Shown in pieces: positions 3,842 through 18,158 of a stretch of DNA of 64,000 nucleotides (positions are counted from its first letter, which is position 1; each line of letters begins with the position of its first letter). Below the pieces are notes generated by a model, which was not told the origin of the DNA, searched no databases, and saw only the letters and a list, made by a program, of their open reading frames with translations. Source of the DNA: Lachnospiraceae bacterium (lineage in GTDB: Bacteria; Bacillota; Clostridia; Lachnospirales; Lachnospiraceae); NCBI GenBank assembly GCA_014804785.1, contig JAAUZD010000043.1, positions 124,001-188,000 of the forward strand, written 5' to 3'. A program made the translations under genes and the position numbers.

Positions 3842-5947
3842 ATGAGTGAAAAGAAAAGCAGACCGACGCCTATTTATTTGAAAGAAGAAGAACTGCTTCG
3901 AGGACTTCCGGAGAGAATTGGCAGGGTGTCTTTGGATTACAGCTGTTATCCGGGTGAAGATTTGTACAGTGATGGTAATATTGAGGATGAAATACTTGCA
4001 ATCGTAAAGGATGCTTCAAGGGTAGAATATCCGGCGATTATAGAAGAAAAGAAAAGCTGGCCGGTTCTATACCATTTATCTCCTCTTAGAGGCAATATTG
4101 TAGATTGGCTTCCGATTAAGCCGGGGGATAAAGTACTTGAGATTGGATCCGGATGCGGTGCGATTACGGAGAAGCTTTCGGAAAAAGCAGGAAGCGTCAC
4201 CTGTGTTGACTTATCCGCCAAGAGGAGCCTTATCAATGCATACAGAAATCAGGACAGGGACAATATAGAAATTCATGTGGGAAATTTCAGCGATATTGAG
4301 CCTTCCCTTTCGGAGGATTATGATTTTGCCTGTATGATTGGGGTATTTGAATATGGACAATCTTACATTCATACCAAGACTCCTTATGAAGATTTTCTGA
4401 AAATCATGAAGAAACACGTCAAAAAAGATGGATGTATCGTGATCGCCATTGAAAATAAATATGGTTTGAAATACTGGGCAGGATGTAAAGAAGATCATCT
4501 TGGGACTTACTTCAGCGGGCTGGAAGGATATCCGGAAGGCGGAAGCGCCCGCACTTTTACCAGACCGGGACTTGAAAAAATTTTCAAAAAATGCGGTGTA
4601 GAGAATTATTCCTTTTATTATCCTTATCCGGATTATAAATTTCCTACGGCAATCTATTCAGACAAAAGGTTGCCCCATACTGGGGAATTGACAGATAACA
4701 TGCGTAATTTTGATCGTGATAGGATGGTGCTGTTCAACGAAAAATATGTATTTGACGGAATCATAGATGATAAATTGTTTGATTTGTTTTCAAATTCTTA
4801 CATGGTTATCATAGGAGGAAATGCAGATACTTGTTACGTAAAATATTCAAATGACAGGGCAGAGGAATATGCACTGCGGACAGATATCGTGGATACGCCC
4901 AAAGGCAGGGTAGTCAGGAAAATACCTTTAAATGAGCAGGCGAAAGAGCATATACAGGGAATGAACCACTCTTGCAGGCTTTTGAAGGAGCGATATGCGG
5001 GAAGCGGTCTTTCCATTAATGACTGTACTCTTTCTGAGGACGGAAGTTATGCAGAATTCCCGTATGAACAAGGAATCACGTTGGAGGAACTTCTGGATCG
5101 ATGCTTGGACAGAGACGATATGGATGGATTTTATCGACTGTTTGAGAGATATTATGAGCTGATTTCTTATGGAGAAGATAAGGAGATAACGGATTACGAC
5201 TTGATTTTTGCCAATATTCTTGTGGATGATGAGCGCTGGACTGTGATTGATTATGAGTGGACGGTGGAGAAGAGAATTCCTTCTGCGGAAGTGGCGTTCA
5301 GAGCAGTTTATTGCTATGTGCTGGAGGAAGAAAAGAGAAACAAACTAAATCTTGATTTAATCATGGATAAATTGGGTATCAGTCAGCAAAAGGCAGAGGA
5401 ATATAGGGAAAAAGAGGGCAGGTTCCAGAAGCAGGTAACCGGCAAGCGAAAATCTATGGGAGAAATCAGAGCATCCATCGGCACATACAGCGTGGATCCG
5501 AAAATCCTAATGGAGCGCCACCTCCAGAAAATCCTGGATCAGAGGATTCAGATTTATTACGACAGGGGAAATGGATTTTGCGAGGAAGATTCCTGTTATA
5601 TGCCGGATATTTATGTGAATGAACATGAAATTGAAGCAGAAATCTTCCTGGATGGAAATGTCAGAGGACTTCGGATTGATCCGGCAGACTGCTCATGTAT
5701 GTTGAAGATAAAGGAATTGCGTCTGAACGAAAGCACTGTGCCTTTACAAAAGAAGTATATACAGACCAATGGCAAGGTGGTAAAAGCAGGATGCTATATC
5801 TTCGATACCCAGGATCCTAATTTATGTATCAGGGTTTCGGAACTTCCAATGAACGGTGAAAATCTTCTTTATGTTAAAATGGAGATTACCCCTGTGCCTG
5901 TTGATATGGCGAAGGATATGATGGATGCAGTTAAAAAACTGTTTTAA
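3842..5947 (+). CDS. Large class I SAM-dependent methyltransferase-containing protein
   Basis: VLEIGSGCGAITEKL motif I; about 700 aa; RBS-like aaaggaag upstream. Confidence 0.75.
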   Translation: MSEKKSRPTPIYLKEEELLRGLPERIGRVSLDYSCYPGEDLYSDGNIEDEILAIVKDASRVEYPAIIEEKKSWPVLYHLSPLRGNIVDWLPIKPGDKVLEIGSGCGAITEKLSEKAGSVTCVDLSAKRSLINAYRNQDRDNIEIHVGNFSDIEPSLSEDYDFACMIGVFEYGQSYIHTKTPYEDFLKIMKKHVKKDGCIVIAIENKYGLKYWAGCKEDHLGTYFSGLEGYPEGGSARTFTRPGLEKIFKKCGVENYSFYYPYPDYKFPTAIYSDKRLPHTGELTDNMRNFDRDRMVLFNEKYVFDGIIDDKLFDLFSNSYMVIIGGNADTCYVKYSNDRAEEYALRTDIVDTPKGRVVRKIPLNEQAKEHIQGMNHSCRLLKERYAGSGLSINDCTLSEDGSYAEFPYEQGITLEELLDRCLDRDDMDGFYRLFERYYELISYGEDKEITDYDLIFANILVDDERWTVIDYEWTVEKRIPSAEVAFRAVYCYVLEEEKRNKLNLDLIMDKLGISQQKAEEYREKEGRFQKQVTGKRKSMGEIRASIGTYSVDPKILMERHLQKILDQRIQIYYDRGNGFCEEDSCYMPDIYVNEHEIEAEIFLDGNVRGLRIDPADCSCMLKIKELRLNESTVPLQKKYIQTNGKVVKAGCYIFDTQDPNLCIRVSELPMNGENLLYVKMEITPVPVDMAKDMMDAVKKLF

Positions 5948-13551: not shown

Positions 13552-14514
13552 ATGGCAAGCACAACCGTGGTGATACCAAATTACAAGGGAATAAACTATA
13601 TAGACAACTGCCTTGCATCCATTTATAAGGGAACTGTTATTCCCCAAATCATCATGGTGGACAATCATTCTGAAGATGGAAGCCTCCCCCTTGTGAAAGA
13701 AAAGTACCCTGAGGTTAAGATCATAGAATTTACAGAAAACAAGGGATTCTGCAAGGCTGTGAATGCAGGCATCAAAGCGGCGGAGACACAGTATGTCCTT
13801 CTCCTTAACAATGACACGGAAGTAGACGCCCATATGATATCCAGTCTGGAGAAAGCCCTTGACAAGGACCGGACGGCATTTGCTGCAGCGGCGAAGATGA
13901 TCGATCTCCACAATCCTGACCGATTAGACGGTGCAGGCGATTTCTACTGTGCTCTGGGCTGGGCATTTGCCAGAGGAAAGGACAAGCCGACAGAGGCTTA
14001 TGACAAGCCTGGACGAATCTTTTCTGCCTGTGCCGGCGCTGCCCTTTATAGACGTGCAATATTTGATAACATAGGTTATTTTGACGAAAATCATTTTGCA
14101 TATCTGGAAGATATGGATATAGGATATCGTGCAAACATTCATGGTTATCATAATATATATGCCCCAGATGCAAAGGTCTACCATGCCGGAAGCGCTGCCA
14201 CCGGCTCTCGGCACAACACTTTCAAAGTGACTCTCTCCGCCAGGAACAGCGTCTACCTGATTTATAAGAACATGCCCGCGCTGCAATTCATTTTGAACCT
14301 CCCTCTTCTGCTCATAGGGTATGGCATAAAATGTCTCTTCTTTACACTGAAAGGAATGGGCGGCGCTTACCTTTCCGGCTTTTTTCAGGGAATACGCTTA
14401 TCCTTTTCAGAGGAAGGAAAGAAAAATAAAGTAAGTTTTACTGTACGGAACCTGCCGAACTACCGCTGGATCCAGATTCAGCTGTGGATGAATATTTTCA
14501 GAAAATTATTTTAG
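13552..14514 (+). CDS. Family 2 glycosyltransferase (rhamnosyltransferase-like)
   Basis: TTVVIPNYKGINYIDNCLASI, LLLNNDTEVD, EDMDIGYR. Confidence 0.88.
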   Translation: MASTTVVIPNYKGINYIDNCLASIYKGTVIPQIIMVDNHSEDGSLPLVKEKYPEVKIIEFTENKGFCKAVNAGIKAAETQYVLLLNNDTEVDAHMISSLEKALDKDRTAFAAAAKMIDLHNPDRLDGAGDFYCALGWAFARGKDKPTEAYDKPGRIFSACAGAALYRRAIFDNIGYFDENHFAYLEDMDIGYRANIHGYHNIYAPDAKVYHAGSAATGSRHNTFKVTLSARNSVYLIYKNMPALQFILNLPLLLIGYGIKCLFFTLKGMGGAYLSGFFQGIRLSFSEEGKKNKVSFTVRNLPNYRWIQIQLWMNIFRKLF

Positions 14515-15460: not shown

Positions 15461-16315
15461 CTACCGATTTAACTTATTTATGTATGTGGCAATTGCATTG
15501 ATTTTCTCTTGTAATTTCTTTGCCTTGATTAATTCTTCGATGGCCTTTTCTCTAGTATACTTTTTTATTTCTTCAATACATCCGTTCCAGTAATCAATTT
15601 CTATTTTCCCTCTATATACAATTAAATGCTTATAATTATTCAAAATATCTTTATATTCAGAATCTGACATACCTGTCTTTTTAGCAACATAAGCATCCAT
15701 TTTAGGTAAGAAACAACATTTTGCGTTTGCAAAGCTAAGAGATTTATCCCTTGCAATCATTTGAGATGCATTCCATAATGACTCAAGTGATAAAGAATCT
15801 GTCTCTCTAATATTTTGCTCTAGCATTATTGAAATATGTTCCCATGACAATAAACAAACATTATTATCCAATGCTTTTGAATATATTTGACTTGTTGCTT
15901 GTGGGTATTGAAAATAAGGTGCAACTAATATAGCATATTCATTTTCAGATCCTCTCCAATCACTTAAATTACTAACCTTAAAATCTTTTTGGTTTTTAGC
16001 AGTTCTACTTAAACGAAAGCATTTAGCATCTGCAACTAAACTATAATTATATCCGGAAATACTTTCGGCTAAAATATCAGCACTATCTGCTCTTTCGTCT
16101 AATGCACGAGCTGCTAATCCTAATAATCTAAAGCATCTAGCTAATACTATATCAGAAGCTTTTGAATATAATTTTTCTTCTGTTGAGTCATGTTCAATAT
16201 TCTCTGGTATTGTTCCAATTTCTTTTACAATACATTTAAATTCGTTTTCTGAAATATTATCAATAAAGTTACGTATTTCTTTAGTTGCAATCTTAAAATC
16301 TTTTACTGATATATT
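15461..16315 (-). pseudogene. HindIII-like type II restriction endonuclease, 5' end apparently degraded (or noncanonical start)
   Basis: Open frame runs from TAA at 16316-16318 (minus) to 15461 with HindIII-like core VADAKCFRLSRTAKNQKDFKV...APYFQYPQATSQI...LLSWEHISIML; no ATG/GTG/TTG in frame before 15871. Confidence 0.75.
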
Positions 16316-16618
16316 TTAATTATAGAACGTTTGTTCTGCAACTTCAAGAACAATCTTATTTATCTAAATAGTTTATCATATAACTGCTACAATAACTACT
16401 TTTTTATGTGCAAGACAAATAGATTCTTCCTTTGTAGTATTCCACTCTATCATCACCTGCTTTACCATTTGCACAAGTATTTTCTCGTCCAGATAGGTTA
16501 AAACTAACATTGTGTCCACGATCATTCTAACAAAAACAAATTCACCCAACTGAAAAAGTAGAACATATAATAATCATACAGACCTAAAACGCATAAACCG
16601 AGGAAGCACCAGACCAGT

Positions 16619-16647
16619 CCCCTCCCCACCCACTCCCCGTCTTCCCC
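16619..16647 (-). other. Putative G-quadruplex motif
   Basis: Minus strand reads GGGGAAGACGGGGAGTGGGTGGGGAGGGG. Confidence 0.7.
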
Positions 16648-16697
16648 TTCCTTACCGGACTACTGGACTCTCGTCCTCCCGCCCTCCGAATTTTGAG

Positions 16698-16726
16698 TTG
16701 TACTTTTTGTAATAATATTGTAAAAT
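16698..16726 (+). promoter_or_regulatory. Sigma-A-type promoter for the sugar transferase
   Basis: TTGTAC - 17 nt - TAAAAT, 23 nt upstream of ATG 16749. Confidence 0.55.
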
Positions 16727-16748
16727 ATTTGCAAGAAGGTAGCAGGAT

Positions 16749-18158
16749 ATGATAAAGGACAATCAGAAGTATTTCAATAGACTGCACTTGCTAGTCGATG
16801 CCGTTGTAGTAGCCATCGCCTACTTGTTTGCATGGTATATAAAGTTCTGCACCATTTTTGCCGATACGGAACCAGGTGCAGGCGCACTAGACACGAGGAC
16901 CTATTTCAGTTTCCTTTATTTTGTTGTGCCTGAATATATCATTTTATACTATTTTTTCAATTTGTACGCTCCAAAGCGTGCTACCAGACGAAAATATGAG
17001 CTTGAAGGCATTGTCAAGGCAAATACCGTTGGCATTGTCTTCTTTATTGTATTTTTGTATTTGATTAAGCAGCAGCATTTTTCCCGTTTTATGATGGGGG
17101 CATTTTTTGTGATCAATATAACCTTTACCACAATATGCCGTACGCTGATCAGAAATATGCTGCTTTATTTTAGGAAAAAGGGATATAATTTAAAATATAT
17201 TCTTCTTGTAGGCTATTCCAGGGCAGCAGAAGAATATGTTACCAGAATCAATGCAAATCCCCAATGGGGATATGTGGTCCGGGGAATACTGGATGACAGG
17301 ATTCCCAGCGGGACGGTTTATAAGGGCGTTAAAGTGGTTGGCAGGATAGAAAATATCAAGTATATTCTGCCTGAAAATAAGCTGGATGAAATTGCGATAA
17401 CGCTTGCACTGAAGGATTACGACCATCTGGAATATATTGTTGATTTATGTGAAAAGTCGGGGGTTCATACGAAGTTCATTCCCGATTATAATTCATTGGT
17501 GCCAAGTCATCCCTATACAGAGGATCTGATGGGACTGCCGGTAATCAATATCCGCTATGTGCCGCTGACCAATACCCTGAACTGGGTGACCAAACGGGCG
17601 GTGGATATCGTAGGAGCTTCCCTTGGGATTATCCTGTCTTCCCCCATCATGCTAGTGGCTGCCCTGGCTGTGAGATTTACGAGCCGCGGACCGATTCTTT
17701 TTAAACAGGAGAGGGTGGGACTCCACAATAAAACTTTTAAAATGTATAAATTCAGGACAATGGAGATGCAGAAACCTTCGGCAGAGCAGAAGGCGTGGAC
17801 AGTGAAAGACGATCCCAGAGTCACTAAAGTAGGAAAATTTTTGCGGCGCACCAGTTTAGACGAGTTGCCCCAGTTGTTCAATATATTGATAGGTGAGATG
17901 TCGTTAGTGGGACCAAGACCGGAACGTCCCCAGTTCGTGGATGTTTTCAAGGAGGAAATTCCGCGTTATATGATAAAGCATCAGGTCAGACCGGGACTTA
18001 CCGGCTGGGCCCAGATTAATGGGTATCGGGGAGATACTTCCATCCGTAAGAGAATTGAGTATGATTTATTTTATATTGAGAACTGGACCCTGGCAATGGA
18101 TTTTAAAATTATGTTTCTGACGATATTCAAGGGTTTCATCAACAAAAATGCTTATTAG
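16749..18158 (+). CDS. Undecaprenyl-phosphate sugar-1-phosphate transferase
   Basis: N-terminal TM region, C-terminal FKMYKFRTME, RTSLDELPQLFNILIGEMSLVGPRPE, RPGLTGWAQINGYRG. Confidence 0.95.
   Translation: MIKDNQKYFNRLHLLVDAVVVAIAYLFAWYIKFCTIFADTEPGAGALDTRTYFSFLYFVVPEYIILYYFFNLYAPKRATRRKYELEGIVKANTVGIVFFIVFLYLIKQQHFSRFMMGAFFVINITFTTICRTLIRNMLLYFRKKGYNLKYILLVGYSRAAEEYVTRINANPQWGYVVRGILDDRIPSGTVYKGVKVVGRIENIKYILPENKLDEIAITLALKDYDHLEYIVDLCEKSGVHTKFIPDYNSLVPSHPYTEDLMGLPVINIRYVPLTNTLNWVTKRAVDIVGASLGIILSSPIMLVAALAVRFTSRGPILFKQERVGLHNKTFKMYKFRTMEMQKPSAEQKAWTVKDDPRVTKVGKFLRRTSLDELPQLFNILIGEMSLVGPRPERPQFVDVFKEEIPRYMIKHQVRPGLTGWAQINGYRGDTSIRKRIEYDLFYIENWTLAMDFKIMFLTIFKGFINKNAY

Follow-up and report, generated by a model that had tools for sequence, protein, structure and literature searches.

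A minus-strand reading frame in the 64-kb stretch of Lachnospiraceae DNA analysed here (the window) resembles the HindIII restriction endonuclease and has no evident start codon. This raises the question of whether the gene was recently knocked out next to a methyltransferase that is still intact, or is translated from an unusual start.

An endonuclease frame with a conserved core

The first-pass annotation had described a HindIII-like frame of about 284 codons, closed on its upstream side by a TAA, and both features were borne out (Table 1; the endonuclease gene is termed R and the methyltransferase gene M). Sense codons run from 16315 to 15464, the stop codon occupies 15461-15463, and an in-frame TAA at 16316-16318 directly abuts the other end of the frame. 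The translation matches the Pfam RE_HindIII profile (PF09518) with 194 bits (E = 4.4e-57; curated cut-off 25.3 bits) over profile positions 17-281 of 285, HindIII itself (PDB 2e52/3a4k) with 225 bits (E = 6.5e-66) in an alignment that begins at HindIII residue 15, and the PADLOC REase_II model at 6e-75. Similarity to the HindIII family is beyond doubt at these scores, which lie far above chance. The D-A-K motif that had been picked out as catalytic in type is retained: D96, K98 and D111, representing the catalytic D-x-K and neighbouring conserved residues, are unchanged, and R keeps 67 of the 67 highly conserved columns, a column counting as such when at least 90% of 71 relatives agree. R is thus assigned to PF09518 both by its whole-length profile match and by its D-x-K residues.

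As a translatable gene R is deficient in both a start codon and a ribosome-binding site. The first ATG, GTG or TTG in the frame is indeed the TTG at 15871, and the 136-aa fragment that begins there, which does not include the D-A-K motif, is the sole open reading frame with a start codon that can be called. We therefore regard R as a pseudogene of the PF09518 family, given the stop codon directly upstream, the lack of any start before 15871 and the lack of a usable ribosome-binding site.

Table 1. Features of the HindIII-type restriction-modification locus in the window.
Feature	Position	Strand	Basis
M, intact N6-adenine DNA methyltransferase, HindIII-type, 298 aa	14553..15449	minus	PF01555 4.2e-47; PADLOC MTase_II 1e-87
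R remnant (HindIII-type restriction endonuclease gene)	15461..16315	minus	284 sense codons and stop; start codon and first ~10 codons absent
Putative deletion junction (approximate), -10 region joined to ~codon 11 of R	16313..16321	minus	upstream regions of L004-L012
Promoter-like site TTGAAG-17-TATAAT of the R-M operon	16319..16347	minus	consensus scan 10/12 (by itself the scan gives a similar number of sites in shuffled sequence); 17-bp layout as in L004-L009
SOS (LexA) box GAACAAACGTTC in promoter spacer	16325..16336	minus	exact GAACN4GTTC, perfect match

The missing 5' end

A scan of bacterial genomes provided 80 relatives of R, the closest nine of which (L004-L012, mostly Lachnospiraceae) are 68-88% identical to it. 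All nine have a normal ATG or GTG about ten codons upstream of the first R codon in the window, giving N-termini such as MFNKLI, and ribosome-binding sites of -5.5 to -12.2 kcal/mol; the residues expected at the N-terminus are absent from the window, as had been noted. The promoters of L004-L009 have the form TTGNNN-17-TATAAT (TATACT in L006), with the start codon 32-81 nt further on, and the distance from promoter to start codon is 19-81 nt among all relatives with a recognised promoter. The window promoter (16347-16319), in contrast, stops 3 nt short of the remaining R frame. Because the relatives' leaders are far longer, approximately 60-110 nt appear to be absent, a size that is approximate since these leaders vary in length. 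The comparison supports a deletion that took the leader, the ribosome-binding site, the start codon and the first ~10 codons of R, and the TAA at 16316-16318 falls at its junction. The window has lost exactly the stretch in which the relatives start, with the promoter kept, which supports the proposal of fresh inactivation beside an intact methyltransferase.

A single-base indel near 16316 was rejected, as the defect is a deletion of the size given above, and so was read-in from an upstream gene, because of the in-frame TAA directly upstream of R. The junction sequence had no match in viral contigs, in which HindIII relatives are at most 48% identical, and among 397 genomes of the same family no further good match turned up.

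The retained methyltransferase

M lies directly downstream of R, the R-then-M order being found in nearly all relatives, and the earlier description of it as intact was confirmed. It is 91% identical to M of both L004 and L005, with a dN/dS of 0.037 to each, and has its own ribosome-binding site, as do its counterparts in the relatives. With this adjacent cognate methyltransferase the pair has the make-up of a type II restriction-modification (R-M) system. In AAGCTT, the base modified by M.HindIII, M.EcoVIII and M.LlaCI is the first A (PMC5974420), and by analogy we infer the same recognition sequence and target base for M, which is probably still methylating AAGCTT. The only HindIII-type endonuclease match in the genome (99.5% complete, 57 contigs) is the broken R; a second such gene was not found in this assembly, leaving M as a solitary methyltransferase with no functional cognate restriction gene there. 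Avoidance of AAGCTT was not seen in the genome, which contains 1371 sites compared with 327 for the reversed pattern.

Of the evaluable loci, 9 of 80 carry a broken R and none of 78 a broken M (Fisher p = 0.003), as scored with profiles built from the relatives' own set and at loci gathered through R, so that complete losses of R are uncounted. In addition to the 5' deletion in the window, the broken genes comprise nonsense mutations in L012, L068 and L075, apparent frameshifts in L020, L027, L033 and L064, which belong to other (metagenome) assemblies and may be sequence errors, and L021, in which the front ~100 residues of R are replaced by unrelated sequence. Sequence errors in metagenome assemblies, however, should strike M too. 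The nine-to-zero ratio fits the idea that loss of R is safe and loss of M is not. The swap in L021 (around 4946-5003, in another rabbit-gut Lachnospiraceae assembly) is in frame and leaves M intact; if it is a real rearrangement and not a misassembly, it is a candidate for another R gene that lost its front end, here by a different route. An apparent R-M fusion in L025 was discarded, as a stop codon separates the two genes.

An SOS-type box in the promoter

The spacer of the R-M promoter contains GAACAAACGTTC, the sole exact GAACN4GTTC in the window and of the same form as the published Bacillus subtilis SOS box (PMC4234289); the first-pass annotation had made no mention of this box. Within the same genome an exact box is situated 57 nt ahead of recA and another 116 nt ahead of an apparent uvrB (named by eye from its translation), and the upstream region of lexA contains three copies with one mismatch each. 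The R promoter also contains an exact box in L005, L006, L007, L009 and L012, five of the nine close relatives, and in four of these the box occupies the identical position within the 17-bp spacer; at that position the box of L008 deviates by one mismatch, and L004 retains a decayed copy. The R-M promoter thus has a box in common with core SOS genes and with relatives, as would be required of a member of the LexA regulon. No exact box was found at the loci of more distant relatives.

A rival reading is that the GAACN4GTTC palindrome arose by chance or is bound by a different regulator, with no LexA control of the operon. In 64 kb a chance match would be expected about half the time, several of the sites that we inspected fall inside open reading frames, and the 48 sites in the genome are fewer than the 70 of a reversed control pattern. 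Against this, the L004-L012 loci contain only one other box in 88 kb, and recurrence in the promoters, at an identical spacer position in four cases, has a nominal p of ~1e-10 if shared descent is ignored; coincidence likewise does not account readily for the boxes at recA, the apparent uvrB and lexA, or for the match to the published form. We consider this alternative, which concerns the SOS part of the interpretation only, to be doubtful. LexA control of the R-M operons is likely for the clade of close relatives, as the box recurs in their promoters and also stands ahead of recA and the apparent uvrB. On balance we favour, with some reservation, the broader reading that the Lachnospiraceae HindIII-type operons form a LexA-controlled clade and that the SOS-type promoter in the window now drives the methylase alone. 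With the box built into the promoter spacer, endonuclease and methylase would both be induced by DNA damage, and AAGCTT methylation in the window strain may shift with DNA damage.

Elsewhere in the same genome an exact box, GAACAAATGTTC, lies 66 nt ahead of a 311-aa open reading frame (L103; G000:C28:18356-20356), which is possibly a further SOS gene.

Age of the proposed loss and alternative explanations

The dN/dS of R against L004-L006 is 0.056-0.075, compared with 0.050-0.056 among the intact L004-L006 genes themselves, a constraint that would look the same in a still-translated gene or under an assembly error. The absence of any damage to R other than at its 5' end (67/67 columns, dN/dS) points to a recent deletion, and the data fit a very recent loss of R.

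The same perfect preservation would be expected if the real genome had an intact 5' end from which a short stretch was dropped in assembly, and R is known here from one draft assembly of 57 contigs. The gap, however, amounts to tens of bases within a 234-kb contig (C43, 233,649 bases), unlike a one-base homopolymer error, the promoter is exactly kept on one side of it, and other loci too have a broken R and never a broken M; we consider such an artefact improbable. Production of an N-terminally shortened, perhaps weakly expressed enzyme from ATA, ATT or a similar codon, for which the intact and constrained catalytic core might speak, is very improbable, since the best ribosome-binding site in the first 150 codons is -4.0 kcal/mol (ATA, codon 36), those at codons 8-18 are -2.3 kcal/mol or weaker compared with -5.5 to -12.2 kcal/mol in the relatives, the predicted transcript start falls at the R frame itself, and no relative uses such a start. 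A rescued translation product of R is accordingly unlikely, and the suggestion of an unusual start found no support, no start-like codon in this stretch having a comparable ribosome-binding site. The locus is thus very probably a HindIII-type R-M operon with a small 5' deletion in R, a solitary methylase and a LexA box in its promoter.

Proposed course of events and relation to known systems

We propose that a HindIII-type operon, with R followed by M under one promoter, was probably gained horizontally and came to lie within a polysaccharide locus. A short deletion would then have brought the promoter up against codon 11 or so of R, with transcription now starting at or just inside the remaining R frame. 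R would no longer be translated and M, from its own ribosome-binding site, would continue to methylate the first A of AAGCTT, leaving the cell with a solitary methyltransferase. The box in its promoter suggests that the operon was probably LexA-repressed and DNA-damage-induced.

The closest R-M systems are HindIII of Haemophilus influenzae (PDB 2e52) and the isospecific EcoVIII, LlaCI, PsaI and Csp231I. The window shares with the HindIII system a full-length match from HindIII residue 15 onwards, an N6-adenine methyltransferase, and neighbouring R and M genes on the same strand; it differs in the missing start codon, ribosome-binding site and first ~10 codons of R and in the SOS box of the promoter. 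Unlike in Csp231I (PMC4824078), no gene for a C protein was found next to R and M or between them in the window. Solitary (orphan) DNA methyltransferases that remain after loss of the restriction gene are an established concept (PMC3874152). M resembles these in being intact and constrained beside an untranslatable R, whereas the remnant of R survives nearly in full, which suggests that the loss has been caught very early. As judged by comparative analysis, the system is of an ordinary kind and well resolved, a HindIII-type pair that has kept its methylase and has only just lost the start of R; it presents a type II system just after restriction loss, and the intact relatives outline the deletion.

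The part worth following is the SOS-type promoter. The box has the same form as at recA and the apparent uvrB and is placed over the promoter, as in the Gram-positive LexA regulon (PMC4234289); what departs from the usual regulon is that the controlled operon would be a type II R-M system. Among the papers searched, none was found on LexA control of HindIII-type or other type II systems. The ydiO-ydiP genes of B. subtilis, which encode the BsuM methylases, are reportedly LexA-controlled. The conserved box raises the question of why a Gram-positive gut lineage places a restriction enzyme under DNA-damage control.

Genomic setting

The R-M pair is AT-rich: GC content is 30-35% in the intervals covering it compared with 38-49% in the others. 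The pair sits on the opposite strand between genes at 13552-14514 and 16749-18158, which from reading their translations we take to be glycosyltransferase-like and sugar-transferase-like, respectively. None of the flanking window genes tested was found at the L004-L012 loci; as no flanking gene recurs there, the pair looks mobile and was probably acquired horizontally. Upstream of the R promoter, a short open stretch on the minus strand within 16319-16748, YLDEKILVQMVKQVMIEWNTTKEESICLAHKK, has no match at the relatives' loci and could be the remaining tail of a further decayed gene.
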